Source of the DNA: Haladaptatus caseinilyticus | GTDB taxonomy: Archaea; Halobacteriota; Halobacteria; Halobacteriales; Haladaptataceae | NCBI RefSeq assembly: GCF_026248685.1 | Contig: NZ_CP111036.1 | Coordinates: forward strand, 1,984,001 to 2,048,000 | Direction of reading: 5' to 3' | DNA: 64,000 nucleotides | Shown: positions 36,407 through 51,976 of the stretch, piece after piece | Layout: each line of letters starts with the position of its first letter | Position numbering within the stretch: position 1 is the first letter of the stretch | The notes under the pieces: generated by a model | What the model saw: the letters and a program-made list of their open reading frames with translations, nothing else | Databases searched by the model: none | What the model was told of the DNA's origin: nothing | Program-made: the position numbers and the translations under genes

Positions 36407-38791
36407 ATGCAAACCGACAGGCGGACCCTGTTAAAAATCGGTGGTGCGGCCGCTACGAGTTCTCTCCTTGCTGGATGTGGGGCCTTTACCGGCGAACTGA
36501 ACGCGAAAGACGTAACCGCGGAGGCGGCAATCGCCGCCGAGTGGAACGCCATGCGCGCACGACTACACGACGCCTTTGCGCTCGGCGTCGCGGGCGAGTT
36601 CGAAGCCGGTGTCTCCGTCGCCGAGAACATCTTTACACGGTTCGAGAAGTCGAGCGGCGAATGGGGTGCACACGAAAAACTCGAACACACGAGCGAAACG
36701 CAGTACGAGGAGTTCGAGGAAGCACTCGGGCAGTTGAAGACCGCTCTCGAAGACGAGAACATGGACGAGGTGAAAACCGAACTCAACCTCGGTAACGAGC
36801 ACCTTCGAAAGGCCCAAATCGGGCTGGTTGGTGAAGCGAACGTTCACGCGCTCGATTTACAACTACTCGGCGCTCGGTTCGAGGATAGCGCGATGCTGGC
36901 CGATGCTGCGACGTTCAAATCGGCCCGAACCGTCGCTGAACGAGCGCTCTCGGCGTTCGAGGACGGCACAGTTCACGACGAACTCGAATCGGCGAGTTCG
37001 GAGACGTACGAGTCGTTCGAGAGCGCGGCCAAGACGACGGTCTCCGCGGCGAAGAAAGAAAGGAAAAGCGTAGTCCGAAAGCAATCGAACGCGGCCGTGA
37101 AAGCCGCCGTTTCGGGGTCGTACGAACTGGGAACCGAGAACGCTGCCGGCGCGGGGCACATCGCGGTCATGCAGGGACAAGGCTTCGACGCCAAAGCCCT
37201 TGCATCGCTCGGCGGCCCCTCGAAATCGTTCGCGCACGCCGCGAGCCTGAACACGTATCGTGCCCGAGCTACGGACTGCAAGTGGCTCGCCGAACAGGGT
37301 GCGACCGGCTACGCAAAGCGCATGGCGAAAGACATCTTCGCCCATTTCGAGGGCGCAAAAGCGCACGAAGCGCTGGAACACGCGAATCACGACGCCTACG
37401 AGAAGTTCGAACACGGACTCGAAGAACTCGCCGCCGCCGCTGGAAAGGGGAACTCCAAAGCCGTCGAACAGGCGGTCAGTGAAATCGACAGCAGTCTTCG
37501 AACCGGAATCGCGGCGCTCACGACCGAAACGGAAGCCGCCATCCTTCAGTCGGGCTTCCTCCGTGCACGATTCGGCGACGCGCTCGAACTCCATACGATG
37601 GGTAAATCGGAGGCCGCCGCAACGATCTCCCAATCGATCTTCGAACGCTTCGAGAAGGACGAACTCGGTCTCCACGAGACGCTCGAACACACGAGCGAGA
37701 AACTTTACGAGCGGTTCGAACACAAGCACTTGAAGGAGGGTCTCATTCCTGCGTTGAAAGGCAACGGGTCGAACACGAGTACCCACTTCGAAGGCTCCAT
37801 GCAAGCCCTTCTCGACTTCGAGACGAAGGCCGGAAACGCGACGCTCGTCGCTGGCGCGGAGGCCACGTTCATGGCCAGTCGTGGATTCGATGCCGCAGGC
37901 GTTGCGAAACTCGGTAACGGAAGTCGCTCGAACGCTATCGTCGAGGCGACGTTCGAACACTTCGAAAACGGTGCAGGGGGATATCACGAAGCACTGGAGC
38001 ACGCCGACCACGACCGCTACGAGTCGTTCGAAAAGGCATTCGGGGGCATCAAAAGCGCCAACGAGACCTATGCGAAGGCGAAACAATTCGGCAACGAGGC
38101 CGTTCAGTCCGTCTACGCGATCGTTGGAACCGCGGGCGGCGACTTCACGGGCGCGGCGGCGACGATCGTTCAGGATGCCTTCCAACAGTTCGAGACGGCC
38201 GAGGTTCACGACCTGCTCGAAAACGGTGACCACGCCGCCTACGAAGCGTTCGAGAACGAAGTGAAGGAGTACGCGAGCGCCCTGAAGTCCGGTGAAGGGA
38301 TCGACGCCGCGAGTGAGGCGTTCGCCGCTGCCGCGCTTCGTGCACAGTTCGCGGTCGTCGGCGAAGTCGGCAACGCCCCCGTCGGAACGCAGTCAGGCGG
38401 GGAGGAAAACGGCGAGACGAAACTGGCGGGGGGTCCAAACGTGAAACAGGGCGTCCCCGAAGACGCGGACCACGTCGTCGAGATGAAGGCCGTCTCGTTC
38501 AGTCCCTCCGAGCTGACTATCAAGAAAGGTGACACTGTCGCATGGAAACACGTCGGCGGCGAGGCTCACACGGTCACTGCCACCGAGAAATCGCTCCCGA
38601 ACGGTGCGAGTTACTGGGCGTCCGGCGGATTCGAATCCGAATCGAAAGCGACGGCGGGATGGAAGAACGGTACCGGTGCGGTTCAGTCCGGGCAATCGTT
38701 CGTCCACACCTTCGAGACGGCGGGAACGTTCGAGTACCACTGCATACCTCATGAGGCGGCGGGCATGACCGGAACTATCGTCGTCGAGTAG
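36407..38791 (+). CDS. Tat lipoprotein with six His/Glu helical repeats and C-terminal cupredoxin (DUF5059-like)
   Basis: The 794-residue protein starts with a Tat lipoprotein signal (DRRTLLKIGG, lipobox LLAGC with Cys24), so it is anchored outside the cell. Residues 40-655 carry six repeats whose core is FE-x(4-9)-HExLEH...YExFE; the HE cores are at 89-94, 190-195, 320-325, 423-428, 527-532 and 601-606. Residues 688-794 form a halocyanin-like cupredoxin with copper ligands H721, C779, H782, M787 (C-x2-H-x4-M). The repeats match my memory of DUF5059. An iron-box-like palindrome precedes the gene. A role in metal capture or redox at the cell surface is inference. Confidence 0.85.
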   Translation: MQTDRRTLLKIGGAAATSSLLAGCGAFTGELNAKDVTAEAAIAAEWNAMRARLHDAFALGVAGEFEAGVSVAENIFTRFEKSSGEWGAHEKLEHTSETQYEEFEEALGQLKTALEDENMDEVKTELNLGNEHLRKAQIGLVGEANVHALDLQLLGARFEDSAMLADAATFKSARTVAERALSAFEDGTVHDELESASSETYESFESAAKTTVSAAKKERKSVVRKQSNAAVKAAVSGSYELGTENAAGAGHIAVMQGQGFDAKALASLGGPSKSFAHAASLNTYRARATDCKWLAEQGATGYAKRMAKDIFAHFEGAKAHEALEHANHDAYEKFEHGLEELAAAAGKGNSKAVEQAVSEIDSSLRTGIAALTTETEAAILQSGFLRARFGDALELHTMGKSEAAATISQSIFERFEKDELGLHETLEHTSEKLYERFEHKHLKEGLIPALKGNGSNTSTHFEGSMQALLDFETKAGNATLVAGAEATFMASRGFDAAGVAKLGNGSRSNAIVEATFEHFENGAGGYHEALEHADHDRYESFEKAFGGIKSANETYAKAKQFGNEAVQSVYAIVGTAGGDFTGAAATIVQDAFQQFETAEVHDLLENGDHAAYEAFENEVKEYASALKSGEGIDAASEAFAAAALRAQFAVVGEVGNAPVGTQSGGEENGETKLAGGPNVKQGVPEDADHVVEMKAVSFSPSELTIKKGDTVAWKHVGGEAHTVTATEKSLPNGASYWASGGFESESKATAGWKNGTGAVQSGQSFVHTFETAGTFEYHCIPHEAAGMTGTIVVE

Positions 38792-39973
38792 TCAGACGTT
38801 TCCGTTCAGCGCGTCGAAAATACCGTCGGTGAACTCGCGGTTGGTCCACAAACCGACTTCCATCCCACCCGCAACGACCGCGGACTCGATGGGGACTTGT
38901 CCTCCTCCCATCCGTGCGTGCCCCCCTGCATCGGCCCCCGGAATCTCCGCGACTGCCGATTGGAGCGCTTTTCCCATGTGAACTCGATCGTCACGCGACC
39001 GTCCAGAAAGATGGATCGTGTCCTCTCTCTGGCCGTAGACGACAACCGCCGTCACGCCTTCCAGTTGCATGAGTTCGTCGGCCGCCTGCGGGATGGCATC
39101 GACGTTCGTGAGTTCGCCGACGTTGCAAACCGCGAACGACCCGCGGACCTCGCGTTCCGTGATGGCGCGAGATTTGATTTCGAGTACCTCGGCGCTCACT
39201 TGTGGGTTCGCGATCCTGTCGAGGCGGTGCTCATCGACACCCTGATACAGATACGCACTCGAGGCGAACTCGGCTTCGGAACAGCCGTTCGTGAGGTGTT
39301 TCGTATCGGATTGGATTCCATACAGTAGCCCCGTCGCGATGTTCGTCGGGAGGACGAACTCGTCTTCTGGTGGGATTTCGTCCGGACCGACGGGAGTCGC
39401 ACCGAGTTCGCCGAAATATTCCGCCACGATAGTCGAACAGGCACCGTAATTCGTCCGTTTATCCGTGAACACTTCGCCCGTCCCGTTTCCGGGATGGTGG
39501 TCGATAACGGCGTATGGTTCGATACGTTCCGCCCCATCGAAGCCGCGTGGTGTATTGTGATCGACGAGGACGATCGTAGAAGCAGTGAGGTCGGTTACGT
39601 GTTTCACCCGTTCCGTTTCGATGTCGAGAATGGTTCGAAATGCACGGTTTTCCTGATGTCGTATTTGGCCGGAATACTGTAATGTGGTTTCGGTTCCGAC
39701 CGTTTCGGCGAGGTATGCGACAGCGATGGCACATGCCATCGCGTCGGGGTCCGGATTTGGGTGCATCAAGACGACGATTTCGTCACGTTTGGCTAGCGCT
39801 CGCTTGAGTCTGGCACCCATCGGCCGCCGAATCCAACGGACGACCAGCCAGAGCGAGACTGCGAGCACGACTGCTCCCAGTGCCGCACCGATGATGAGCA
39901 TCGGATTTTCGGAGCTGTAGACTTGCGCCGTCCGAAACAGCCCCTGAACCGACTGGTCGGCCGGAAACTCCAT
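38792..39973 (-). CDS. Membrane-anchored DHH-family phosphoesterase
   Basis: The 393-residue protein has one N-terminal membrane helix (about 25-47, IIGAALGAVVLAVSLWLVV), then a DHH domain with VLMHPNPDPDAMACA (DxD site) and AVIDHHPGNG (the DHH motif). A DHHA1-like end carries AGGHARMGGGQVP. Relatives cleave phosphodiesters such as oligoribonucleotides or cyclic dinucleotides; being membrane-bound recalls GdpP-like architecture, but no PAS or GGDEF domain is present. It converges with the repeat-cupredoxin gene, ending one base after that gene's stop. Confidence 0.88.
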   Translation of the reverse strand: MEFPADQSVQGLFRTAQVYSSENPMLIIGAALGAVVLAVSLWLVVRWIRRPMGARLKRALAKRDEIVVLMHPNPDPDAMACAIAVAYLAETVGTETTLQYSGQIRHQENRAFRTILDIETERVKHVTDLTASTIVLVDHNTPRGFDGAERIEPYAVIDHHPGNGTGEVFTDKRTNYGACSTIVAEYFGELGATPVGPDEIPPEDEFVLPTNIATGLLYGIQSDTKHLTNGCSEAEFASSAYLYQGVDEHRLDRIANPQVSAEVLEIKSRAITEREVRGSFAVCNVGELTNVDAIPQAADELMQLEGVTAVVVYGQREDTIHLSGRSRDDRVHMGKALQSAVAEIPGADAGGHARMGGGQVPIESAVVAGGMEVGLWTNREFTDGIFDALNGNV

Positions 39974-40035: not shown

Positions 40036-40881
40036 TCAGCCCTCTCGATACGCCGAAATCGCATCCGCATACCCATCACGATACGTTGGATACCGGAATC
40101 GATAGCCCAACTGTCGGAGTTTTTCGTTCGAGCACCGTTTGCTCGAACGCGCACGCTCGCTCGTTGCTGCTCCTTTTGTCGGCTTATCGACACCACATCG
40201 GTCCGCGAGCCACTCCGCGAGTGTTGGTTTCCAAATCGGTTCGTCGTCGGATACGAGCACGATTTCGTCCCGTGCGTTATCGGAATTCAATAGAAACCGA
40301 ATCGTTCCCGCGGCATCTTCTCTGTGAATCAGATTTAGGTATCGCTCCGATACCGGCCCGTCCAGATACCGCTCCAACCGGTACCGGTTCGGGCCATACA
40401 GCCCGGCGAATCGAGCGATCGTCCAGTCTACTGCGCTCTCCTCGCGGACGATTCGTTCGGCTTCGACGAGAATTTCCTGTCGTTCGGATTTCGGTTCCAG
40501 TGGCGTCGATTCGTCAACCCATGCCCCGTCTCGGTCGCCGTACACCCCAGTGCTCGATGTGTAGATGATTCGCTCCGGGGATGCGTCTCGACCCGCAAAA
40601 TGCGTGAGTGCTGTTCGAAGTCCATCCACGTAGGCGTTCCGTGCGTTGTCGGAACTGCGGCCGCCTGCACTGACAGCGTAGACGAGGGCGTCAGCGTCGG
40701 GGACCGCCGACAGGGACGTTTCGTCGGTCACGTCCGCCCGAACTCCGTTGAATCCCTCGTTTTCGATCGCCCGTATTCCGTCCGCGGACCGTCGGACGCC
40801 GAACACGTCGTGTCCCGATGCCGTCAGCTGACGACCGAGTTCGAGACCGACGTACCCACAGCCGAGAATTACGACGTTCAT
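40036..40881 (-). CDS. NAD-dependent epimerase/dehydratase family protein (YeeZ-like)
   Basis: The 281-residue extended-SDR protein opens with the dinucleotide motif VVILGCGYVGLELGRQL and has IYTSSTGVYGDRDG in the active-site region. The usual YxxxK catalytic pair is not obvious after the tyrosine. NLIHREDAAGTIRFLL is the family's substrate-domain segment. It is a probable sugar-nucleotide or small-molecule oxidoreductase/epimerase of unknown specificity. It lies 37 nt downstream of the DUF5791-like gene on the same strand. Confidence 0.8.
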   Translation of the reverse strand: MNVVILGCGYVGLELGRQLTASGHDVFGVRRSADGIRAIENEGFNGVRADVTDETSLSAVPDADALVYAVSAGGRSSDNARNAYVDGLRTALTHFAGRDASPERIIYTSSTGVYGDRDGAWVDESTPLEPKSERQEILVEAERIVREESAVDWTIARFAGLYGPNRYRLERYLDGPVSERYLNLIHREDAAGTIRFLLNSDNARDEIVLVSDDEPIWKPTLAEWLADRCGVDKPTKGAATSERARSSKRCSNEKLRQLGYRFRYPTYRDGYADAISAYREG

Positions 40882-40918: not shown

Positions 40919-41347
40919 CTATCGGTCGTTTCGGCTGGCGATGAAATGGTGAATGAGGGCGTACTCTTCGAGCGTCATCGGCGCTCGCCCTTCGATTTTC
41001 TGCTGGATTGCGCGGGCACCGAGGTCGCTGTCGAGGCTGGACGCCAGTGTGTCCACGTCGAGTAGTCCAGTCGTCATTCCCATCAACAGGTGGTCGCGTA
41101 CTTCGAGCAGGATGGTGTCCTTCGGTGGAGCGTCTCCGGTGGCAAGGATTGCAGCGGCGTCTTCCAGCGTGAGTTCCGGTTTCCCGCCATCCGCAACGGA
41201 CTCGACCGCGAGACGGTCGAGGTCCGTCGCCGCGACCACGTCGTCAACGCCGACCGATTCGATGGTTTCCGCGAGTTCGCTGACATACTGGGTGTGTACC
41301 TCCTCCGGGGTCAACTCACCGGGATTGTCTATCTCGTCGTAGAGCAT
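40919..41347 (-). CDS. Haloarchaeal conserved hypothetical protein (DUF5791-like)
   Basis: ATG 41347 gives 142 residues, mostly helical, without signal or membrane segments: LTPEEVHTQYVSELAETIES at the start and APMTLEEYALIHHFIASRN at the end. I recognise it only as a conserved haloarchaeal family. It overlaps the end of the large pilus-operon gene by 32 nt in another frame, so it is probably cotranscribed as the last member or uses a promoter inside that gene. Confidence 0.75.
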   Translation of the reverse strand: MLYDEIDNPGELTPEEVHTQYVSELAETIESVGVDDVVAATDLDRLAVESVADGGKPELTLEDAAAILATGDAPPKDTILLEVRDHLLMGMTTGLLDVDTLASSLDSDLGARAIQQKIEGRAPMTLEEYALIHHFIASRNDR

Positions 41348-44300
41348 GATCGTCACGAAGGGTGCGCAAGTCAAATGGGTTGTTACTCCGGTTCGACCAT
41401 CCGGGCGACCGTTCGTCCGCATCTCCGTTTACGTCGCCGACGCCCGCTTTCCCCGGTGGCACTGCGATGACGACCGTCGTCCACGTGTCGAACGAGATGG
41501 GTGTCGTCCGGCCCAACAGTTCCGTCGCTCCGTCGTCATCGACATCCATTCGAACGGGTCGTGTCCGCCGGACGTACGCCACCGATGCACCCGGTGAGAC
41601 AGGCGATCCTTGTCGCGCTCGAACCGTAAACTGGGCATACGTGCCCGACACGTCTACCTGCCACACGTTGACCGTCGCGTACCAGTAGCCGGGAACTGGT
41701 GCGACCGGGAGTCCAGCCGCGAGGGAGGACATCGTCTCGCTGACCCACTTCCGTTGGGCGACCTCGACACCCTTCTCTATCGCTTGCTTCGTCAGTCGCT
41801 TCGTTTCGTATTCGACGATTCGACGGACCGTCTTCGTCGCGGGGTCGACTATGGACCCTTTCACGCCACCCGTCTCCGAGCGCGCCCTTTCGAGACCACT
41901 TTGGACTTGGAGGGCAAGTTCGTCGCGTTGCATCCGTGTCCACTGTTCCGATGGACCGTTCCGCAGTTCCTCGATTTCCAACGCGATCGGTCGTGCCGCG
42001 GAGCCATTCGAGAGTGCGAGCGCACGGCCTGCGGTCGTATCCCACCGTGCGAGACCGCGACGAACGGCAATTCGTCGCTCCTGCCGCGTTGTGCCCGTCG
42101 GTTCGAGCGAGTCGATGAGGGTTCGCTCTACGTCTTCGATCGATTTTCGTACCGAAATCTGGACCTCGTCTCGCTGTCGGCGTAACGTTTCGTTTTCGAT
42201 TGCAGAAAGCGTCGTATTTGCGGCACGGAGCGTGAGCGCACCGTTTCTGAGGCTCACTCGTTTTTCCTTCCTCGCGTCCGGAAGTAGTGAAACGATTCCG
42301 TCCGCCACGTCCGACGAGGGTACCGCGAACACGTTGATATTCCGCGCGGACATCGGATGCACTCGCTCACCTCGTGGAACTGTCGAAACGTGGTCGTGTC
42401 CGACTGCGGAGAGCGTGAGATACGCGGGGTCACCATCGACGCTGAGATTCGTCGGCGCACCAGGTCCGGCCGTCGGAAGGGGATTTCGAGTCGGTCGTTC
42501 GACTCGTTTCCGTGCTTCCAGAACTTTCCGTACTCGGTCGAGTGGCACACCGGTCACGTCACGGATTGCCGAACTGTACCCCTGCTGTGTCCGTCGAGTC
42601 AGTTCTGCCCGGACGTCGAGGCGATCGAGAACACGCTTTACGTACGCTGTCCGAACCGCATATCGCGCTCGCTCCGCTGCGCTGTCGTAAGTCGAAGGTG
42701 CGTTCACCAACTCGCCGCGGTGTGCTCGAACCGTCCGCGCAAGTGCCGCCGCGGGATTCGTCTTGCCGCTCCCGACAGCACCGCGAGAAACCGTCACGGA
42801 GAGGTTTCGGATCTCGTTACAGAGTCCGCGAACATCGCTATATACCCACGACCGAAGGCCCTTCGGAACTCGACCCTGTTCCGTTTTCGGACGCGTATCG
42901 AGTGTTCTATCGACAGCGCGGCGCGCGAGTCGCTCGGGACCACCGCCGTCCGAAATGAGTCGAGAGACGGCTTTTCGCTCGATATCAGCGAGATTCGCCC
43001 CGGAAAATCGACCTCCCGGTCGGTGTGCAGTAGGCAATGGTCGAGTCGGTGCCGTTTCGGTCGTCGTATGGTCGCCCGCAACACCGAGCGAAACGATGAA
43101 TTCGTCCGTCCATTGACCGGTCGTTCGTTTCGTCCGGTTGTCCCGTTTCCATTGACGAATCGCGACGTGCGTTCGTTGGACGCGCCGAGCGTCGCTCCAG
43201 AGGAGGTGCCACCCTTCGATCGTTTCGGGTTCGTTACCCTCCGCCTTCTCGACTACGACCCGCGTTTCCGTCCGCTGCTCGACGAGCGTCCAATTTTTCC
43301 CCGGTGATCGTGATCTTGGGCGGGATTCGTCGCGAACGTTCCGGACACTCGCCACGGGCCGAACGGTCACTCGGTAGCCGGAGTCGACGGCGGCGTCGAA
43401 CGCACTCTGTTCGTCGTTCTCGATAATGTCGAGCAGTGCCTTCTCTGCCGACTCGTTTACGCCGACGATCATTCCATCGTTGGGTGTCCGAGTCATGTTC
43501 GATGGATCGGAGATGGTGGTCGGTTCGTCGCGCAATCCTCCGGTGGTTTCGAGTACAGTGTCGGCCCACAGCGTCCCGTGTTTCGTCGTCGGTATCAGGA
43601 CGTCGGCCACGCCAACCTGGGCCGTCGCTCGTCGAAGACCATGCCGTCCGGCAGGGTCACTTCGACCGAATGCGTTCCGTTGCTCTTCGAGCAGTGCCCC
43701 GTTTGTCATCAGTTCGACGTGCCGGTTTGCGAGAACATTCTCGATAGGCGCACCGCCGTACTGAGCGTATCCTCGTGCCCACGTCGTAGCGTAGAGTCGA
43801 GCGGTGAGCCGCCGTCCCAGGCCGGGTTTGAACGGGTCGCGATCGAGCCGTCGCTCGAACTCCTGTACTCGTTCGTGAAGTGCGAGCACCGGTGTCTCCA
43901 CGACTAGCGTCATATTTCGAGATGCTCGTGCGACGACCGACTCGCCCCGATATGCCTGTATTGAAACGTTTTCGATGCGAACGCGGAGTCCTGATTCGGT
44001 TGCCGTTCCGACGGGGGCGATGTGAACGCGACGTACTGCTTGCCGAAGCGCGCTCGCGTTCGGTGTCGGTGCGAGCGAGGCACTCGCCCGCACGTCACCG
44101 ACGTGTGCGGATGTGGCGCGGAGTTCGTTTCGCGCGGAAAGATAGATTCGAAGCCGCAAGTACGCGCGAAACGGTTCGGAACCATTCACGACGTTCCCCT
44201 CGGTCGTGTTCGCTGGTCGTATCACTGGCTGGGCTGCCGCATCCCTGCTTGCTCGTTGCACTGCGCTCCGCAGTGTCGTTTGTGTACTCGCCGTAAGGCG

Positions 44301-44453
44301 GTCCATCGCACGTTCGACGCTCCGATCCACCGTCGGTGATTCACGCGATCCCAACGTTCCCGCGAACGTCGCACTGCCGACCAGCAACAGGACACCGACG
44401 AGGGCGAACGGAACCCGTCCCCGAGTGTCGTCTGCCAATCTCATTTCGACCAC
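41316..44453 (-). CDS. Very large surface protein of the pilus-like operon (1045 aa)
   Basis: The protein has one N-terminal membrane helix (about 14-33, RVPFALVGVLLLVGSATFAG) and then about 990 residues that are mainly extracytoplasmic. These are Arg-rich and helical, with a Ser/Thr/Pro-poor composition, and end in a hydrophobic stretch (about 990-1005, WTTVVIAVPPG). No enzyme motif is seen. Large proteins of this kind occur in haloarchaeal operons that encode a Tad-like ATPase and membrane platform (the DUF7286-type gene, by memory). It overlaps the upstream gene's stop by 13 nt. It may be a pilus-associated or secreted structural component; that is inference from context. Confidence 0.75.
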   Translation of the reverse strand: MVEMRLADDTRGRVPFALVGVLLLVGSATFAGTLGSRESPTVDRSVERAMDRLTASTQTTLRSAVQRASRDAAAQPVIRPANTTEGNVVNGSEPFRAYLRLRIYLSARNELRATSAHVGDVRASASLAPTPNASALRQAVRRVHIAPVGTATESGLRVRIENVSIQAYRGESVVARASRNMTLVVETPVLALHERVQEFERRLDRDPFKPGLGRRLTARLYATTWARGYAQYGGAPIENVLANRHVELMTNGALLEEQRNAFGRSDPAGRHGLRRATAQVGVADVLIPTTKHGTLWADTVLETTGGLRDEPTTISDPSNMTRTPNDGMIVGVNESAEKALLDIIENDEQSAFDAAVDSGYRVTVRPVASVRNVRDESRPRSRSPGKNWTLVEQRTETRVVVEKAEGNEPETIEGWHLLWSDARRVQRTHVAIRQWKRDNRTKRTTGQWTDEFIVSLGVAGDHTTTETAPTRPLPTAHRPGGRFSGANLADIERKAVSRLISDGGGPERLARRAVDRTLDTRPKTEQGRVPKGLRSWVYSDVRGLCNEIRNLSVTVSRGAVGSGKTNPAAALARTVRAHRGELVNAPSTYDSAAERARYAVRTAYVKRVLDRLDVRAELTRRTQQGYSSAIRDVTGVPLDRVRKVLEARKRVERPTRNPLPTAGPGAPTNLSVDGDPAYLTLSAVGHDHVSTVPRGERVHPMSARNINVFAVPSSDVADGIVSLLPDARKEKRVSLRNGALTLRAANTTLSAIENETLRRQRDEVQISVRKSIEDVERTLIDSLEPTGTTRQERRIAVRRGLARWDTTAGRALALSNGSAARPIALEIEELRNGPSEQWTRMQRDELALQVQSGLERARSETGGVKGSIVDPATKTVRRIVEYETKRLTKQAIEKGVEVAQRKWVSETMSSLAAGLPVAPVPGYWYATVNVWQVDVSGTYAQFTVRARQGSPVSPGASVAYVRRTRPVRMDVDDDGATELLGRTTPISFDTWTTVVIAVPPGKAGVGDVNGDADERSPGWSNRSNNPFDLRTLRDDHALRRDRQSR

Positions 44454-45289
44454 GTCCTGACCACGAGTTCGGTTCGTCCGACCGCGGCGGAGCGAGCCGC
44501 CGCGGTCGGTGCGCCGAATTGCTCCCGAAGTTCGGATTCGATTGCCGTCGTCATCGAACGAACGAGCATCCGTCTCGTCTTCATACTACCAATATCGGGG
44601 GACAACGAGTCGGGGTCGTATCGCTTTCTCAGTCGCCGACTTCGTCCTGCGACCGAATTTGCGACCGACCGACGGTCTCGAAGGGCGATTTCCGTCGAAC
44701 GTTTCGGGAACAATCCGGAAACGATTCCAGTCGCGACGACACGTGCAACGTCGCGATAGCCTCCTCCCCGTGCCGCGTCGATTGCATCGTCTCGAACTCC
44801 CGGCAGTCCGCTCGGGACGGATAGAACTGTCGCGTGAACGGCGGCATCACGTGGTGGCGACTCGCCAACGGCAAACTGACCACGGATATGTGAGTTTCGA
44901 TACGGCGTCCATCGAACGACGATTTGCGTGTCCGATGGTGAGCCGAGCCGTTCTTGAACCCGATTCGCCACGGATCGTTCGAATCCATCGCCCGTTCGCG
45001 TAAGTTCGACTCCTCGAACAGTCGTGTTGGAAACGGCGGCATCGGCGAGCAGTCCGGCGAGCGTATCGTGTGTCGTTCGAGGCAGTCGTCGTGATTCGGT
45101 TTGAATCGTGTAGTTCACTTGTGCTGTGCTGGTTGCGAGGACGTTCGCGGTCGATTCTGTATTCGACGCTTTGTCCACTGTGTCGGGCGACTGCACATCG
45201 ACGAGGACGAATGCGCTCGCACTCACCACGAGGAGACAGAGTGTCACGTCGAAAACGGAGCTTATCGCTCGCATACGGGTTTCTTTCAT
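44441..45289 (-). CDS. Pseudopilin-like membrane protein of the pilus-like operon (282 aa)
   Basis: ATG 45289 gives 282 residues; ATG 45274 (MRAISSVFDV) is an alternative. An N-terminal helix (about 8-27, SSVFDVTLCLLVVSASAFVLV) follows a basic stretch and is followed by an extracytoplasmic domain. This resembles TadE/TadG-type minor pilins in layout rather than in recognisable sequence. The start overlaps the stop of the upstream gene by one base (its stop is at 45289-45291), so expression is coupled. No function can be assigned from motifs. Confidence 0.72.
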   Translation of the reverse strand: MKETRMRAISSVFDVTLCLLVVSASAFVLVDVQSPDTVDKASNTESTANVLATSTAQVNYTIQTESRRLPRTTHDTLAGLLADAAVSNTTVRGVELTRTGDGFERSVANRVQERLGSPSDTQIVVRWTPYRNSHIRGQFAVGESPPRDAAVHATVLSVPSGLPGVRDDAIDAARGGGYRDVARVVATGIVSGLFPKRSTEIALRDRRSVANSVAGRSRRLRKRYDPDSLSPDIGSMKTRRMLVRSMTTAIESELREQFGAPTAAARSAAVGRTELVVRTWSK

Positions 45290-45681
45290 CACCACACCCC
45301 TATGTGAAGTCGGGCGGGACGAATTCGGCCGGGTGCGGTTCGGACGCTCACGACGGTTTCCGCGGTATCCGCGTTCGCGGGAACGGGTGGCCCCACGTGC
45401 CACCGGTTGACTGTAGTCCCGGATCGTGAACGTAGCGAGAGGGAGATGTTCAGACGCTTCCCGTCGGGTTTCGACTGCATCCCATCGGACAGCTTTCTCG
45501 GCTCTACGACGCCGTTCGAACTCGCGATTTCTCGGACATCCGAAAGTATCGTGGACGCAATATTTCGCTCCGGATTTGGCGTCGCGTCGCCCAGAACACC
45601 TGTGTAAGTGACGAGCCCAACGCACACCGCAAACACCGCGATGATTGCCGCGAGCGGTTGCGTCTGTCCTTTCTTCGACAT
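45289..45681 (-). CDS. Prepilin-like protein of the pilus-like operon (130 aa)
   Basis: ATG 45681 gives MSKKGQTQPLAAIIAVFAVC: a short basic leader ending KKG, then a polar residue and a hydrophobic helix (about 9-28). This is the layout of archaeal class III (prepilin) signals, which PibD cleaves after the glycine. The rest (about 30-130) is a small extracytoplasmic beta-rich domain. I infer a minor pilin. It sits between two other membrane-tethered proteins in the operon. Confidence 0.72.
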   Translation of the reverse strand: MSKKGQTQPLAAIIAVFAVCVGLVTYTGVLGDATPNPERNIASTILSDVREIASSNGVVEPRKLSDGMQSKPDGKRLNISLSLRSRSGTTVNRWHVGPPVPANADTAETVVSVRTAPGRIRPARLHIGVW

Positions 45682-45688
45682 TCGTCTG

Positions 45689-46183
45689 TTACCCCGAGAC
45701 CAGCGTCGCATCGACTCCCTCCCACGAAACACAACGAATCAAAAGCGTGCTTTCCGCACTTTTCCACGTCGGCCGCCCGTTTTGGGCGTCCCGTGCCGCC
45801 GACCGAAATGCAGACGATGAATCGAAAAGGGTCGATGGATGTTCCCCGCGCAGCAGTCTCCAGAGCTTCGTTCCCTCCTCGATTGGCACGACAGAGTCGT
45901 GAGCAAACGTCGCGTGGGCGCTCCCGTCATCTCCACGCAACCCGAGTCCACGACGCCCGAGTTTTATTTCCCGTGCCGAAAGGGGATGTTCGGCGGTTGC
46001 TGTGTACTCACAGCCGGCTACGACATCGACGGTGTTGGCCGCACGGGTAGCGTCCGGCGGCGGTGAGGTCGGTAGTTCGGTAGCGACGCCGAATACCACG
46101 AAACTCGCCACCGTTACCCCGAGCCAGATATACCACGCATCGACAGGAGTGTCGAACATGGCCAGGATTCGGCGCGTTTTCAT
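45689..46183 (-). CDS. Membrane-tethered protein of the pilus-like operon (164 aa)
   Basis: The protein begins MKTRRILAMFDTPVDAWYIW with a hydrophobic segment (about 16-35, AWYIWLGVTVASFVVFGVAT), then a soluble domain with one cysteine near 57 and one near 150. I do not recognise a characterised family; it looks like the DUF7283-type member of this haloarchaeal operon. It starts 8 nt after the TadC-like gene's stop and is followed by the prepilin-like gene 7 nt later. Confidence 0.7.
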   Translation of the reverse strand: MKTRRILAMFDTPVDAWYIWLGVTVASFVVFGVATELPTSPPPDATRAANTVDVVAGCEYTATAEHPLSAREIKLGRRGLGLRGDDGSAHATFAHDSVVPIEEGTKLWRLLRGEHPSTLFDSSSAFRSAARDAQNGRPTWKSAESTLLIRCVSWEGVDATLVSG

Positions 46184-46191
46184 ACTTAAAC

Positions 46192-47904
46192 CTACGCCGT
46201 CAGGGTTCCGGCGAGCGTGAACGCGATGAGAAAGATCGCGGTTGCCGAAAGAATCGACTGACCGACTCGATAGCCGACCAGGGTCCGGTCCAATCCATGC
46301 TCCAAGCCAACCGCTACCGTCGTGAGTATCGCGGCAAGCAAGAGGACGTAGCCCCCGACCGCGAGCCCTAAGACGTCGGCCGGAAATGCACTACCGAGCG
46401 AACTTCCCGTCCCTACTGTTCCCGTCGACCCGGACATTCCTTCGGCGAGAGCCACAGTTGCTCCCGAGACGAGTGGACCAAAAATTGCTGCCGTGTGACG
46501 GAGCGTTCCCGTAACCTGCGCTAACTCTCGCCGTGCTTCACGTTCGACCTGTTGTAACTCGTCTAGATGGTCGGCCATCGATAGCACAGCCTCGCCGGCC
46601 GGGCGTCCTTCACGCGCTGAGAGTGCGAGGAGCGAGACAGCACTCCGTGCACGGGGACTGGGGACGCCCGAAAGTGCGCCGTGTTCTCCGAGAAACGACT
46701 CCCGTATGCCCCGTTGTAGCTGTCGTTGAATTCTGTTCGCCCGCTCGAACATCACACCAGTTTCGCCGGTGATTTCGTCCGTAGCAACGACGATCGCCCG
46801 TTCGACAGCGGTTCCTTCTTTCACTCGACGGCCAACGAGATACAGCGCATCCGTTACGTTCTCCTCGACGGCACGGACTCGCGTTCGAACCTGAACCGTT
46901 GGCTGAGTGGCCCCCACGAGTAACCAACCGACGAGACACCCCGTACCCGCGATCCAACGCGTCCAATGGGCGAGAACTAGCCCCGTTCCGAGAAACGCGG
47001 TACCACCGGCGAGACTACTGAGGGCCAGCACGTCCCACCATCGGTTCGGAACGTCAGGATGTGAGCGAGTCACGTCTGGCGGCGGAAACGCGACCGGTCG
47101 GTGGGTAATGAGCCAAACGCTTCCACAGACGAGTCCGAAGGGTAACACGAAATCGTACACGACGACAAGTAAGATCGGCGACACTGGAACACCGGCCGTT
47201 CGCGCCGCCGGAAGCACCGCGATCAGCGCCAGTGGAAGCAAAACGCCGAAGGCGTACATCGCAGTCGCGGGTTCCCGAATATCGCCGACGAACGCTGCCA
47301 TCCGTTCCCGGGTTCCGTCGAGTATCGCGGATAGGGCACGGTCCAGTGTTCGGGCGCGCTCGCCGGATGGGGCCTCACTCGCCGCCGCGACGAGTATCAT
47401 CGCACGATGAAGCGGTGGGTTCCACGTTTTCCACTCCTCGGCGAACGTCGTTACCCCCGAGTCGGGAGATCCGACCGCCCGCCGGACGTGGTCGCCGAGA
47501 CTGTTCGCAAGTGGTCCATCACCGGTTCTGGCCGCGAAGGTCGCGGCGGCTTCCGCAGTTGGTTCGATCCGCATCCGGAGAACGGCTCTGGCAACGATGT
47601 CTGGTGCATCTCCGAGTGCCTGCGTTCGTTTGATTTTGGCGACGAGGACCGGTGCATGACGAATCGATATCGGGGTGAAAACCGTACCCGCAAAAAGCAC
47701 ACCGGCGACCGGTACCCGAACCCCTGGTGGAACCAACGCGGTCACGACGATTGCGACGAGACATACGAGTATTCCCGCACCATTTCCTGCTCGGATAACG
47801 TCGGTGCTATCGATACCGACCTCTAAAAAGCCGAGCGAGTGGTCGATGGTAGCATCGGCGGAGACCGTCCACGGGTACAGCGACGCGAGTCGCGCGAGTA
47901 TCAC
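46192..47904 (-). CDS. Type II/IV secretion platform protein (TadC/GspF family, duplicated)
   Basis: The 570-residue protein has about eight to nine membrane helices and two GspF/TadC-like halves (about 90-270 and 335-560), each with a cytoplasmic helical bundle (KRTQALGDAPDIVARAVLRMR; VRAVEENVTDALYLVGRRVKEG) and paired helices. Such proteins form the inner-membrane base on which the ATPase turns. Its start overlaps the ATPase stop (ATGA), the usual pairing of PilB-PilC or TadA-TadC. Confidence 0.88.
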   Translation of the reverse strand: MILARLASLYPWTVSADATIDHSLGFLEVGIDSTDVIRAGNGAGILVCLVAIVVTALVPPGVRVPVAGVLFAGTVFTPISIRHAPVLVAKIKRTQALGDAPDIVARAVLRMRIEPTAEAAATFAARTGDGPLANSLGDHVRRAVGSPDSGVTTFAEEWKTWNPPLHRAMILVAAASEAPSGERARTLDRALSAILDGTRERMAAFVGDIREPATAMYAFGVLLPLALIAVLPAARTAGVPVSPILLVVVYDFVLPFGLVCGSVWLITHRPVAFPPPDVTRSHPDVPNRWWDVLALSSLAGGTAFLGTGLVLAHWTRWIAGTGCLVGWLLVGATQPTVQVRTRVRAVEENVTDALYLVGRRVKEGTAVERAIVVATDEITGETGVMFERANRIQRQLQRGIRESFLGEHGALSGVPSPRARSAVSLLALSAREGRPAGEAVLSMADHLDELQQVEREARRELAQVTGTLRHTAAIFGPLVSGATVALAEGMSGSTGTVGTGSSLGSAFPADVLGLAVGGYVLLLAAILTTVAVGLEHGLDRTLVGYRVGQSILSATAIFLIAFTLAGTLTA

Positions 47905-49823
47905 GCCGAGTCACCGTTCATCGAGCCACCGTCCATTCGTTCTGTCGTCACTGCTACCTCCTGCTTCGACCGGGAAACCTCCGTTTCGAGGGCGGACGTT
48001 CGGGCGGCGATCGCCGCCCGAACGTCCGAATACGTTTCGGTGGAATCGGCGAGTGTGGCGACGAGGACGCTGTTTCCACGGTCGATTCGAGCGGTCGAGA
48101 CGAGTTCGCCCTCGTCGAGTTCGTACAGGGATTCGAACCGGACGTCCGCCCCACTGCCGACGATTTCTTCGATGGATTTCACGCGCTTACCGCTGGTCTC
48201 GTCAGTTTCGTAGGATTCGAGGGTGATGATAAAGTCAGTCGTCGAAAACGACGACGGGGGAACACCGAGGTCGGTAACCACGCGTTCGTAGACTGCATTC
48301 CCGCAATCGCCGTGAATCGTTCCGAGAACGGCACTCCCGCTGGCACCGACTCGCATCGCCTCGTACAGGACGTTCGCCTCCTCCCCACGGACTTCACCGA
48401 CAACGAGTGCCCCTTCACCCAACCGGAGCGCGGTTCGAAGGGCCTCGTCAGGGTGCAAACCCGGTTCGTCATCGGTAGTCGTCGTCCGAAGTGACTGCAC
48501 ATCACGCCCGTTCTGCTGTAGTGATTCGACCGGAAGTTCGGGCGTATCCTCGATAACGACGGTTCGTGTTTTGTTGGGGAGTTCCCGAAGCAGTGCGCCG
48601 AGGCAGGTTGTCTTTCCCGCCCCACGAGTTCCCGCGACGAGTCCGGCGGCGGACCGCTCGACTGCGAACGAGAGGAGACCAGCGGCATCAGCTGAAATCG
48701 TACCATTTTCGACTAACGCCGGGAGTGTCCACGTTTCGTCCGACTGAACGCGAAAGGCGAATCCGACCCCGTCGCTGACGGGGTCGGTGACGCCCGCAAC
48801 ACGAACGGTACTGTCACGAACGTCGGCGACGGCATCGAGAGTCGGACTTGCACGCGAGAATGCGCGGCCGCTCGTCCGCCGAAATCGGGACGCAAGCGAC
48901 TCCGCACCCGCCGTCGTGAGATGGACGTTCGTCCGCATCAGTTCACCATCAACACGGACGCGAAGGGGATTGGTATCGACCGGCGCGGTCACGAACACGT
49001 CGGACACTACCGGGTCTGCGAACAGATCGGAGAAAATACCGTACTCCTGAGTGTACTTTCGGAGGGTTGTAGTGAGTTCATGGATGGGGTCGTCGGCTGT
49101 CGCAACCGTCCTGACTGCCTTTCCAGCGGCCCGTTTGCCACCCGTGACGCCCCCACTCGCGAGGAGTTCGACGGCCTGATGAAGCGTTTCGAACATGGGT
49201 TCGTCGAACGAGTTCTCCAACGGTTCGATGTGATAGGTTCGAATGTCGTCGTCGGTGTGTTCGGTCGCTTCCGTGTCGTAGTATCGAACCGTCGCGCCGG
49301 TTTCGATCGTGTACTGATCGGTCAGTCGCGCGTCGGTCGGTGGTCGAATCGCAACCCGAGATCGAGAAATGGTCGGACCGACGAACGGTCGAAACGCGGT
49401 TTCGTACCCCTCGATTCGGTGAATACCCTCCGCGAATCCGGTTTCCGCGGCGATTTTTGACACCATCCCGGCACGACCAGTTGCATCTATTCCGGCCCGA
49501 AACGGGTCGCGCCGTGCGTGTTCTGCGAGACGTTCATCGTAGAACCCGACGCGCTCGACGAATCGCCCTGCCGCGACGAAAAACGCCGCGTCGTCGCCTT
49601 CGTAGGCGTGCTCGATACCGTTTTTCCGTACCAAAATTCGGTCGGCTTCGCGTGTCACAAGGGCGTCGATGACCGTTGCTCGACAGAGAGGGTCGTCCGC
49701 GAGTCTCCCGCTTCCCGAACAACCGCTCGCATCGACGACCAATAGGTCACCGTCGAACGAGGCTTCGCAGTGACAACGGCTGTCGGAGTCGCTCCCTCGG
49801 TATTTCGCCAGTGGGTTCCACAT
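47901..49823 (-). CDS. Type II/IV secretion system ATPase (TadA/PilB-like)
   Basis: The 640-residue protein has an N-terminal region with four cysteines (C17, C19, C35, C47) that could bind a metal, a helical linker, and a secretion ATPase core from about 255: SDVFVTAPVD, Walker A GTRGAGKT (398-405), the Asp box EDTPELP, Walker B ALVVGEVRGEE (about 472-482) and the His box GTIHGD. It powers pilus or archaellum-type assembly from the cytoplasmic side of the membrane. It is the first large gene after two small ones in the operon, and its partner TadC-like gene follows with a 4-nt overlap. Confidence 0.92.
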   Translation of the reverse strand: MWNPLAKYRGSDSDSRCHCEASFDGDLLVVDASGCSGSGRLADDPLCRATVIDALVTREADRILVRKNGIEHAYEGDDAAFFVAAGRFVERVGFYDERLAEHARRDPFRAGIDATGRAGMVSKIAAETGFAEGIHRIEGYETAFRPFVGPTISRSRVAIRPPTDARLTDQYTIETGATVRYYDTEATEHTDDDIRTYHIEPLENSFDEPMFETLHQAVELLASGGVTGGKRAAGKAVRTVATADDPIHELTTTLRKYTQEYGIFSDLFADPVVSDVFVTAPVDTNPLRVRVDGELMRTNVHLTTAGAESLASRFRRTSGRAFSRASPTLDAVADVRDSTVRVAGVTDPVSDGVGFAFRVQSDETWTLPALVENGTISADAAGLLSFAVERSAAGLVAGTRGAGKTTCLGALLRELPNKTRTVVIEDTPELPVESLQQNGRDVQSLRTTTTDDEPGLHPDEALRTALRLGEGALVVGEVRGEEANVLYEAMRVGASGSAVLGTIHGDCGNAVYERVVTDLGVPPSSFSTTDFIITLESYETDETSGKRVKSIEEIVGSGADVRFESLYELDEGELVSTARIDRGNSVLVATLADSTETYSDVRAAIAARTSALETEVSRSKQEVAVTTERMDGGSMNGDSA

Positions 49824-49849
49824 ATTCGGACGTGGCCTCGTCTTCTGAT

Positions 49850-50377
49850 TTAAAGTTCACCGGAGCGGATGACGAGGATGACTCGCTCGCCGTGTTGTTT
49901 CACTAACAGGAGTTCGATGGTAGTATGCTCTATATCACGGATGACGAGCGGTTTCCGGTCGGGTTCGAGCCGCCAGCGATCGCTATTCTCGTTGCCACCG
50001 TTGCGCATGGCGACTCGAAGGTCGAACGGGACGTGGTAAACGTGGCGTCGTCCTCCTTCGATACGGTAGGCCAGCACATCGCCGTAGACGTCTTTTGATC
50101 GGCGAGTTCCGGGAACCCCACCGATTGCGACGTACTCTACATCGGCAACCGTTACGGATGGTGACGGAACCGAAAGCGTCACAACCCTTCGTGCGCCGCG
50201 GTCGCCGATGGACACCGCACTCTCGTCTACAAGGTCGGTCATGGCGTTTTCGAGTCGCGTCAGTTCCTGGTCTACGTGGTGGTTCGTACGAACACTCCGA
50301 GCATCGTCGATAGCGGGATAGGAGATGCTACAACAGACGACTGCGAGTACGACGGCGAGAACGGTTCGAACGCTCAC
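49850..50377 (-). CDS. Minor-pilin-like protein of the pilus-like operon (175 aa)
   Basis: The protein opens MSVRTVLAVVLAVVCCSISYPAI, a single N-terminal hydrophobic helix with a very short basic leader, then an extracytoplasmic domain (about 25-175) containing RRVVTLSVPSPSVTVADVEY and RHVYHVPFDLRVAM. By layout it is a membrane-tethered or pseudopilin component (DUF7311-like, by memory). It overlaps the upstream coiled-coil gene by 4 nt and precedes the ATPase by 26 nt. Confidence 0.72.
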   Translation of the reverse strand: MSVRTVLAVVLAVVCCSISYPAIDDARSVRTNHHVDQELTRLENAMTDLVDESAVSIGDRGARRVVTLSVPSPSVTVADVEYVAIGGVPGTRRSKDVYGDVLAYRIEGGRRHVYHVPFDLRVAMRNGGNENSDRWRLEPDRKPLVIRDIEHTTIELLLVKQHGERVILVIRSGEL

Positions 50378-50832
50378 AGCACCTCGCGAAGTCGTGTGAA
50401 AATGGAACCTTGCTTCGAGTTCGTTGCGACCGATCGCTCGTCTCGTTCGACCCCCACCTCGATTTCCGGCACGGGTTCCTCTGCGGACAGGTCGGACTTA
50501 CGACGGGGTCCGATCGGTGGTTCACGCTGTGCCGGTGACGATTCTCGCTGGCGCGTTTCAGCCTTAGCGAGTGCGGCATCCGCACGTCGCTCCACGTCGG
50601 CGTTGACGGACCGTATCGTACCGACGTAGCCACGGATTGCTTGGACAGCGGCGTCGAGTTCGTCCAACCGGGATTCGATATCATCCACGCTCGTACTTAT
50701 TTCTGACATGTTTTGACGGGTCCCACTGTCGCTCAGATCTGGAACCGGATCCCCATCAGTTAGCGCTCGCTCGACCGTACGAAGCCGTTTGTCAAGTGTT
50801 TCGTGATCGGACACGTCCGGAGTTGGTTTCAT
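50374..50832 (-). CDS. Coiled-coil protein, first gene of the pilus-like operon (152 aa)
   Basis: ATG 50832 gives 152 residues; an in-frame ATG at 50901 would read into the divergent cetZ2 start and is unlikely. A heptad-rich helix (about 45-105: SEISTSVDDIESRLDELDAAVQAIRGYVG...) predicts a coiled coil, followed by a charged linker and a C-terminal IFTRLREVL helix. There is no signal peptide, so it is cytoplasmic and may contact the ATPase. It starts 67 bp from cetZ2 on the other strand. Confidence 0.75.
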   Translation of the reverse strand: MKPTPDVSDHETLDKRLRTVERALTDGDPVPDLSDSGTRQNMSEISTSVDDIESRLDELDAAVQAIRGYVGTIRSVNADVERRADAALAKAETRQRESSPAQREPPIGPRRKSDLSAEEPVPEIEVGVERDERSVATNSKQGSIFTRLREVL

Positions 50833-50899
50833 CTTTTTACTTAAAATTGATGTAACTGATGGCAGAAAATTCATTACGGGTGAATGGGTGGGCTTTGGC
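50833..50899. promoter_or_regulatory. Shared divergent promoter region, pilus-like operon and cetZ2
   Basis: Only 67 bp separate the two start codons. The AT-rich stretch TTACTTAAAATTGATG (about 50836-50851) is the best TATA candidate for cetZ2, which would give a leader of about 25-30 nt. The minus-strand reading of ATGAATTTTC around 50866-50876 could serve the operon. Confidence 0.45.
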
Positions 50900-51976
50900 A
50901 TGAAAGTCGTCCTGATTGGTATCGGTCAAGCCGGAGGAAAACTGACGCAGAAGCTCGTCGAATTCGACGCGAACATGGATTTTGACGCCGTTAAGGGTGC
51001 TCTGGCGGTCAACTCCGCGAGAACGGATTTGCAATCACTCGACCTCGATACGGTTCTGGTCGGACAAGAACGGGTAAAGGGTCACGGCGTCGGCGGTGAC
51101 AACGAACTCGGTGCGGAAGTGATGCAAAGCGATGCGGGAGAAGTCATGAGTGCGCTCGATGGACGCATCACCGCGGAGGCAGAAGCCGTCTTCGTCGTCG
51201 CGGGACTCGGTGGCGGAACTGGGAGTGGTGGCGCGCCGGTGCTCATCCACGAACTCCAACGGATCTACGAAATACCCGTCTATGCACTCGGTGTCCTCCC
51301 CGGACGTGGCGAAGGGTCGATGTATCAAGCCAACGCCGGTCGGTCGTTGAAGACCGTCGTCCGCGAGGCGGACGCAACCCTTCTCATCGATAACGATGCG
51401 TGGCACGAATCCGGTCAAAGCGTCGGGGAAGCCTTCGACGCCATCAACCAGCAAATCGCACAACGTGTGGGTATCTTGCTCGCGTCCGGCGAGGGGGTCG
51501 AGGGGGTCGGCGAAAGCGTTGTCGATTCGAGCGAAGTCATCAACACGCTCCGTTCCGGTGGCGTCGCGGCCCTCGGCTACGCGAGCGCGGACGCGAGCGA
51601 GGAGAGCGGTGAGAACATCAACACCGTTACGAGCAACACGCGGCAGGCAATTCTCAGCAACCTGAGCGTGCCGAAAGCCACGGACGCGGATTCAGCGCTT
51701 CTCGTCGTTGCGGGGGATGCCGACAGGATCCCGCGAAAAGGTGTCGAAAAGGCACGAAAATGGCTCGAAGGGGAAACCGGAAGCCTCCAAGTTCGCGGGG
51801 GTGACTACCCGCTGGACAGTAACCGACTCGCTTCGCTCGTCCTGCTTGGCGGCGTCGAACGCTCACCGCGAATGAAGGAGTTCATGGAGCGTGCGAAGGA
51901 GGCAAACAAGCAAGAGGTGCGGAAAGAAGACCCCGCGGAGCTGTTCCAGAACGACAAAATCGACGACCTGTTCTGA
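50900..51976 (+). CDS. cetZ2: Tubulin-like cytoskeletal protein CetZ2
   Basis: ATG 50900 gives 358 residues opening MKVVLIGIGQAGGKLTQKLV, with the tubulin signature GGGTGSG (104-110), VLPGRGEGSMYQANAGRSLKT and the C-terminal VLLGGVERSPRMKEF. Segments such as VKGHGVGGDNELGAEVM and the stretch EVMSALDGRITAEAE match what I recall of Haloferax CetZ2 better than CetZ1. CetZ proteins are GTP-dependent filaments of the cell envelope that control shape and motility. A GTG four codons upstream is a less likely start. The C-terminal tail is short, as in CetZ2. Confidence 0.92.
   Translation: MKVVLIGIGQAGGKLTQKLVEFDANMDFDAVKGALAVNSARTDLQSLDLDTVLVGQERVKGHGVGGDNELGAEVMQSDAGEVMSALDGRITAEAEAVFVVAGLGGGTGSGGAPVLIHELQRIYEIPVYALGVLPGRGEGSMYQANAGRSLKTVVREADATLLIDNDAWHESGQSVGEAFDAINQQIAQRVGILLASGEGVEGVGESVVDSSEVINTLRSGGVAALGYASADASEESGENINTVTSNTRQAILSNLSVPKATDADSALLVVAGDADRIPRKGVEKARKWLEGETGSLQVRGGDYPLDSNRLASLVLLGGVERSPRMKEFMERAKEANKQEVRKEDPAELFQNDKIDDLF

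Follow-up and report, generated by a model that had tools for sequence, protein, structure and literature searches.

The locus analysed here, a pilus-like operon back to back with cetZ2 in Haladaptatus caseinilyticus, has close relatives among the described archaeal type IV pilus (T4P) systems. The accessible sections of Makarova 2016 (PMC4858521) characterize T4P subclade 4F by a hybrid set of pilins together with a halobacterial coiled-coil protein and, often, a surface-layer-like protein, and place an FtsZ-like gene within its gene context in Halobacteria. According to the available part of Brown & Duggin 2023 (PMC9856176), the pilB2/C2 regulon adjoins cetZ2 in most Haloferacales and Halobacteriales species, not in Natrialbales; arCOG04674 (34/41 species) and an epimerase (32/41) accompany cetZ2 with the pilus present or absent, and the pilus block is proposed as a recent or mobile acquisition. 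The system and its position beside cetZ2 are therefore already published and not a new pairing, and this gene order is a main published clue tying CetZ2 to a surface machine. We examined the locus in a 64,000-nucleotide stretch of contig NZ_CP111036.1 (positions 1,984,001–2,048,000; hereafter the window, whose numbering is used throughout) and compared it across haloarchaeal genomes. The comparison makes it likely that the locus is a subclade 4F pilB2/C2 machine within an old, inherited block of genes, apparently with a promoter of its own, and that any functional coupling to cetZ2 would be loose. The apparently old order, its repeated breakage with both sides surviving and the separate promoters lower the weight of the gene-order clue. 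New here are the genome counts of linkage and orientation, the remnants, the split operons and the promoter layout; among the matches listed in the open-licence literature, judged by titles and abstract openings, we found none on promoter layout or remnants.

In the window, eight minus-strand genes running from DUF7310 to DUF7286 (41316–50832) are divergent from cetZ2 (50900–51976), and most adjacent gene ends in the operon overlap or lie no more than 30 base pairs (bp) apart. DUF7286 is followed in the same direction by DUF5791, an epimerase-like gene and a DHH-family gene:

50374–50832, minus strand: DUF7310, a coiled-coil protein encoded at the head of the operon (PF23991, 4.4e-28, 98 bits)
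49850–50377, minus strand: DUF7311, hydrophobic N-terminal segment as read from the sequence (PF23993, 1.1e-35)
47901–49823, minus strand: PilB2-type secretion ATPase with Cys-containing N-terminus (PF00437, T2SSE, 3.5e-20)
46192–47904, minus strand: PilC2/TadC-type platform protein (PF00482, T2SSF, 6e-07)
45689–46183, minus strand: DUF7283, hydrophobic N-terminal segment as read from the sequence (PF23954, 1.4e-53)
45289 to about 45711, minus strand: DUF7285, pilin-like N-terminus by eye (KKGQTQPLAA...; PF23956, 1.3e-30; start 45711 placed from homologues)
44441 to about 45289, minus strand: DUF7284, hydrophobic N-terminal segment (PF23955, 2.3e-78; start placed from homologues)
41316–44444, minus strand: DUF7286, about 1,040 amino acids, hydrophobic N-terminal segment and large ectodomain (PF23957, 1178 bits)
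40919 to about 41347, minus strand: DUF5791, all-helical, two helix-turn-helix-like repeats (PF19104; start placed from homologues)
40036–40881, minus strand: NAD-dependent epimerase-like protein (PF01370, 3.8e-13)
38792–39973, minus strand: DHH-family protein, following the epimerase in the same direction
50900–51976, plus strand: cetZ2, ATG at 50900 (CetZ_C PF21011, 1.1e-64; Tubulin PF00091, 2.2e-30)
50862–50874, plus strand: putative cetZ2 core promoter, block at −38 to −26 resembling a TFB-recognition element (BRE) and TATA box (ATG-anchored profile of 125 cetZ2 upstream regions)
50839–50848, minus strand: putative TATA-like element of the pilus operon, read from the sequence, at leaderless distance to GTG 50814

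Open reading frames and Pfam families bear out the description in the earlier note of a pilus-like operon back to back with cetZ2. Eight of the nine genes that it assigned to the operon stand; the ninth, DUF5791, is probably a neighbourhood gene and not a pilus component, because it adjoins cetZ2 without pilus genes between them in 28 loci of the survey below. The 67-bp gap given there (50833–50899) is correct for a DUF7310 start at ATG 50832 and becomes 85 bp with GTG 50814, the likelier start, because that of the congener G123 aligns near it and a TATA-like TTTTAAG lies at leaderless distance. The window CetZ protein matched PDB chain 4b45 with 493 bits and 4b46 with 325 bits, which we take to be CetZ2 and CetZ1 of Haloferax volcanii, respectively; by these scores it is closer to CetZ2 than to CetZ1. 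Across the 145 genomes surveyed, the best-scoring group of CetZ matches reached at least 429 bits and the next at most 340, except for one partial match (G118).

Judged by gene content and order, the window locus is a haloarchaeal pilB2/C2 system of T4P subclade 4F. Like the described regulon, it has the ATPase with a TadC-like platform, a large surface-type protein, several pilin-like proteins, an adjacent FtsZ/CetZ gene and probably the halobacterial coiled-coil protein, and we saw no essential difference; the coiled-coil protein of the subclade, arCOG07564 in the accessible sections of PMC4858521, presumably corresponds to DUF7310. A frequent trait of the subclade, an extra Cys-rich N-terminal domain of the ATPase, is also present, with C19 invariant and C17, C35 and C47 nearly invariant among 15 aligned ATPases. 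The ATPase scored 72.4 bits against PF00437 (cut-off 24.9) and 122 bits against the TadA-like family TIGR03819, under the cut-off of 373, and its profile matched structures 2oap, CpaF and FlaI; the platform protein scored 29.9 bits against PF00482 (cut-off 25.2). The closest named ATPase was that of Haladaptatus salinisoli (71% identity; records from the window's own genome were possibly omitted from this comparison). A bacterial Tad/Flp pilus shares with the locus a TadA-like ATPase domain, under the family cut-off, and a T2SSF platform, whereas haloarchaeal DUF proteins stand here in place of secretin, TadZ and prepilin peptidase, none of which was among the Pfam matches of the nine genes. 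The pil-2 locus of Halobacterium salinarum (pilB2 OE1347R; available part of PMC4292770) shares the ATPase group, which we read as arCOG01818, and a set of co-transcribed genes, prepilin candidates among them. Its pilC2 has an in-frame stop and, in strain NRC-1, its pilB2 is disrupted, whereas both frames are intact in the window. The remark in the earlier note that the product of this pilus class is not known mostly holds: we have seen no report of a pil-2 filament or function, but the accessible text of PMC4292770 describes low-level transcription of the pil-2 locus, with induction in adherent cells. By analogy to relatives, we propose that the ATPase and T2SSF platform would drive assembly of the membrane-tethered, pilin-like subunits DUF7283, DUF7284, DUF7285 and DUF7311; the large DUF7286 may be exported or tip-like, and the DUF7310 coiled coil may serve as a cytoplasmic regulator or adaptor.

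We surveyed 145 whole genomes of Halobacteria, plus 14 control genomes, using as queries DUF7286 (matched in 111/145) and the window cetZ2 at E 1e-90 (125/145). The two lay within 20 kilobases of each other in 70/145 genomes and were divergent in 70/70; the remaining 75 had both genes apart (32), cetZ2 alone (23), DUF7286 alone (9) or neither (11), and the 'apart' state of G040 is probably a contig break. The junction is thus not unique to this genome, the question raised in the earlier note, and given the reports in PMC9856176 and PMC4858521 this check had largely been done by others. Regions were fetched for 160 of 166 (the six left out were all unlinked DUF7286 regions) and modelled with iterated profiles; the DUF7310 profile was found in 97 fetched loci. 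Six of the 70 linked genomes had no ATPase at that place (four remnants, G045 and G046), and in three of the 32 (G033, G141 and G124) the ATPase and platform genes adjoin cetZ2 although DUF7286 is located elsewhere, giving 67 linked ATPase loci. Among 94 ATPase loci in all, cetZ2 was beside 67, DUF5791 beside 78, both beside 62 and neither beside 11; the proportions 67/94 and 78/94 lean upward, the six unlinked regions being absent and the ATPase having been sought only in DUF7286-matching genomes. Seven genomes had the ATPase locus and no cetZ2 match at E 1e-90. We also searched the contigs of named genomes with the ATPase alignment (a single ATPase sequence as query gave no match there) and took the best 80 of 559 confirmed matches, counted as loci and not as genomes. 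cetZ2 lay in the fetched stretch of 35 of these 80, three being too short to tell: 16/18 in Haloferacaceae, 10/25 in Haloarculaceae, 3/5 in Haladaptataceae, 6/9 in the remaining groups, 0/16 in Natrialbaceae (one too short), 0/5 in Natronomonadaceae and 0/2 in Halobacteriaceae.

Individual loci showed other arrangements. In Halorussus ruber (L193) both the order and the orientations of the pilus genes have been reshuffled, yet the genes still lie near cetZ2. In G045 and G046 (loci L054 and L055), DUF7286, DUF7284 and DUF7285 adjoin cetZ2 with no ATPase, platform or DUF7310 there. Halorientalis persicus carries two pilus loci on one contig, one at cetZ2 (L205) and the other away from it with a broken DUF7286 (L267).

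The gene order across these genomes suggests an old block, consisting of the DHH-family protein, the epimerase, DUF5791, the pilus genes and cetZ2, that was repeatedly lost or broken, rather than a recent mobile insertion. We favour an ancestral block because slot and orientation are shared by several families (codes f1, f2, f3, f4, f5, f7 and f8) and because remnants survive. DUF5791 was on the far side of the pilus block in 62/67 linked loci and adjoined cetZ2, with no pilus gene modelled between, in 28/125 cetZ2 loci (25 within 500 bp), so the pilus block occupies that slot; a wider count of direct neighbours, 34, includes four remnants and two loci with DUF7310 between. The remnants, DUF7286 fragments between DUF5791 and cetZ2, occur in four genomes, all from genera with linked members, and three of them also hold DUF7310 sequence: in G012 the start of DUF7310 and the end of DUF7286 are fused in one open frame, G067 keeps an intact-looking DUF7310 and the end of DUF7286, G125 has pieces of DUF7286, DUF7311 and DUF7310, and G056 has a broken DUF7286 end. 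Six further genomes from four genera (G024, G033, G141, G124, G057 and G087) have a split operon, a portion of which sits at another place. A PilB+PilC tree built from 94 loci groups mostly by genus, and the label 'at cetZ2' changes on it 9 times against a shuffled mean of 23.6; the tree is unrooted and comes from a quick search, with long branches, and one of the changes (G040) is probably a contig break. The one linked locus of f4 has ten unlinked loci of f4 and g29 as its sister group there, with a Shimodaira–Hasegawa-like approximate likelihood ratio test (SH-aLRT) value of 100. The cetZ2 tree shows 17 changes of linked status, reduced to 13 when remnants and partial loci assigned by hand are scored as formerly linked.

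Brown & Duggin 2023, in its available part (PMC9856176), proposes instead that some lineages acquired the pilus block next to cetZ2 recently or by a mobile route. cetZ2 regions with and without the pilus do have genes outside the block in common, here as in the accessible text of that paper, and the Natrialbaceae loci among the best 80 of 559 are unlinked; we nevertheless consider such an acquisition highly improbable, given the same slot and orientation in seven family codes, remnants in genera whose other members are linked, and a PilB+PilC tree that follows genus for the most part, mobility genes not having been searched for. Several points weigh against an inherited block loosely coupled to cetZ2. 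The ATPase-locus counts lean upward, as stated above; unrooted trees cannot tell gain from loss, so that loss as the direction of change is what we infer; and the Natrialbaceae branch, never linked among the named loci, gives no support for ancestry by itself. cetZ2 and DUF7286 co-occur in the 145 genomes (odds ratio 5.4, Fisher p 0.001, with no kinship correction in this or the following co-occurrence tests), and linkage lasting across families could reflect selection for coupling.

The co-occurrence disappeared once adjacent genomes were removed (odds ratio 1.7, Fisher p 0.43), and counted by genus it gave p 0.05 for all and 0.71 with adjacent genomes removed. End-branch lengths of CetZ2 were alike, with a median of 0.044 in linked and 0.049 in bare genomes. 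Co-occurrence and branch lengths neither show nor exclude coupling.

In a pooled, ATG-anchored profile of 125 cetZ2 upstream regions, in which not every row was judged singly, positions −38 to −26 form a block resembling BRE and TATA box, and position −1 is T or C in nearly every case. An AACGTT core starting at −37 to −33 was present in 65/125 (57 at −34; shuffle mean 0.54), namely 31/70 adjacent genomes and 34/55 others; the window cetZ2 and that of its congener have no such core. This pattern fits a leaderless-type, self-contained cetZ2 promoter whose spacing is almost constant whether the genome is linked or not. DUF7310 genes carry a similar block and a CCA about 10–12 bp before the start; among those with assignable starts, CCA within about −18 to −9 was found in 36/45 at cetZ2 and in 6/13 away from it, the six coming from two genera, so that the pilus-side promoter looks intact after separation from cetZ2 in these six loci. 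On this evidence, separate leaderless promoters, arranged back to back, appear to serve cetZ2 and the pilus.

For 73 DUF7310 genes in cetZ2 loci, the median ATG-to-ATG distance was 79 bp, and members of f2, f3, f4, f5 and f8 fell at 74–80 bp. TATA centres lay 10–19 bp apart in 34/73, 20–29 bp in 10/73 and 30 to 134 bp in the remaining rows, the window row excluded; 15/73 promoter scores were not above the random-sequence 95% point, and the best start had been picked by promoter score, which flatters the scores. The automatic DUF7310 start of the window row was wrong (an upstream ATG), and its promoters, read by hand, are about 27 bp apart. From general footprint sizes, two complexes of TATA-binding protein (TBP) and transcription factor B (TFB) should collide at a spacing of 10–19 bp. 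Because the two promoters are often very close, shared control is possible, yet the data do not require it; the wider spacings mean that promoter overlap is not essential. A bidirectional switch, in which BREs on the same DNA in many species would admit one initiation complex at a time and so allow either CetZ2 or the pilus, with DUF5791 as local regulator and DUF7310 as contact between the products, seems to us quite unlikely.

The earlier note's reading of the junction as a sign of shared control or of a functional link is thus not supported as it stood. The spacing of the cetZ2 promoter block is almost constant across linked and unlinked genomes; of 13 unlinked pilus loci with an assignable start, six, from two genera, have a pilus-side promoter that looks intact; and DUF5791 accompanies the pilus at least as persistently as cetZ2 does (78 versus 67 of 94). 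The association vanishes once adjacent genomes are set aside, and seven genomes have the ATPase locus with no cetZ2 match at E 1e-90. The functional link is unproven, and the comparison weakens it somewhat.

We consider it unlikely that CetZ2 works together with the pilus, with filaments that scaffold or position the machine, perhaps through DUF7310, and with the junction kept for co-regulation. cetZ2 does lie beside 67/94 ATPase loci, the ATG-to-ATG distance is 74–80 bp in members of five family codes, and cetZ genes of Thermococcales also adjoin a T4P locus, one of clade 1 and hence of a different clade (accessible parts of PMC4858521 and PMC9856176). DUF7310 also stays at cetZ2 in the six genomes that have part or all of the rest elsewhere, but as the gene nearest to cetZ2 it would be left there trivially by any break within the operon. 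The ATPase locus is kept without a cetZ2 match in seven genomes and cetZ2 without DUF7286 in 23. The ratio of nonsynonymous to synonymous substitution rates (dN/dS) of CetZ2 was 0.03–0.13 in remnant genomes and 0.06–0.15 in linked controls, a comparison in which the losses look too recent to count. Expression points in opposite directions, weakly, as the species differ: in the available text of PMC7749143 (cited in PMC10606840) mating conditions lower the cetZ2 transcript of Haloferax at most of the times sampled, whereas in that of PMC4292770 pilB2 is up 8.5-fold, from a low level, in adherent H. salinarum cells, the reference gene and flaI rising 2.8- to 2.9-fold in the same comparison. Cells with a cetZ2 deletion were shorter at 1 h and longer by 6 h of early biofilm formation, according to the accessible part of PMC10606840. 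We favour a neighbourhood inherited in several haloarchaeal families in which any functional coupling of CetZ2 and the pilus would be loose or facultative, because each side persists in genomes that have lost or lack the other.

We also asked whether DUF7310 stayed under selection once the pilus was lost, but dN/dS in the remnant genomes is uninformative, because their DUF7286 fragments are still constrained (0.04–0.42, versus 0.23–0.49 in intact pairs). At the C-terminus of several DUF7310 proteins a variable linker leads into a short stretch that looks amphipathic (SLLDRVRESL in relatives, for example) and is a candidate motif for binding or membrane contact.

The comparison separates DUF5791 and the epimerase from the pilus. 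The DUF5791 model (predicted local distance difference test (pLDDT) score 94.4) has two helix-turn-helix-like repeats and aligned best with XRE-type repressors and controllers at a middling Z of 5–5.5 over about 60 residues; the best Foldseek match had E 2.2, and the best PDB sequence match, a pyruvate:ferredoxin oxidoreductase chain, was weak (E 0.005). The two-repeat model is in line with the transcription-factor role suggested for arCOG04674 in the available part of PMC9856176, a group that, from its gene position, would be DUF5791. The CsmR paper (PMC13286277) contains no cetZ2, pilB2, pilC2, HVO_0745 or HVO_0746. The AlphaFold2 model of DUF7286 (pLDDT 81.1) shows a large multi-domain ectodomain with no clear match in the PDB, where the DUF7286 profile gave one weak match (E 0.2). 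The family also matches Methanosarcina acetivorans, among the control genomes, and is not confined to Halobacteria. Beyond the block, a plus-strand gene for a DUF5059 protein with a plastocyanin-like domain (36407–38791) is convergent with the DHH-family gene.

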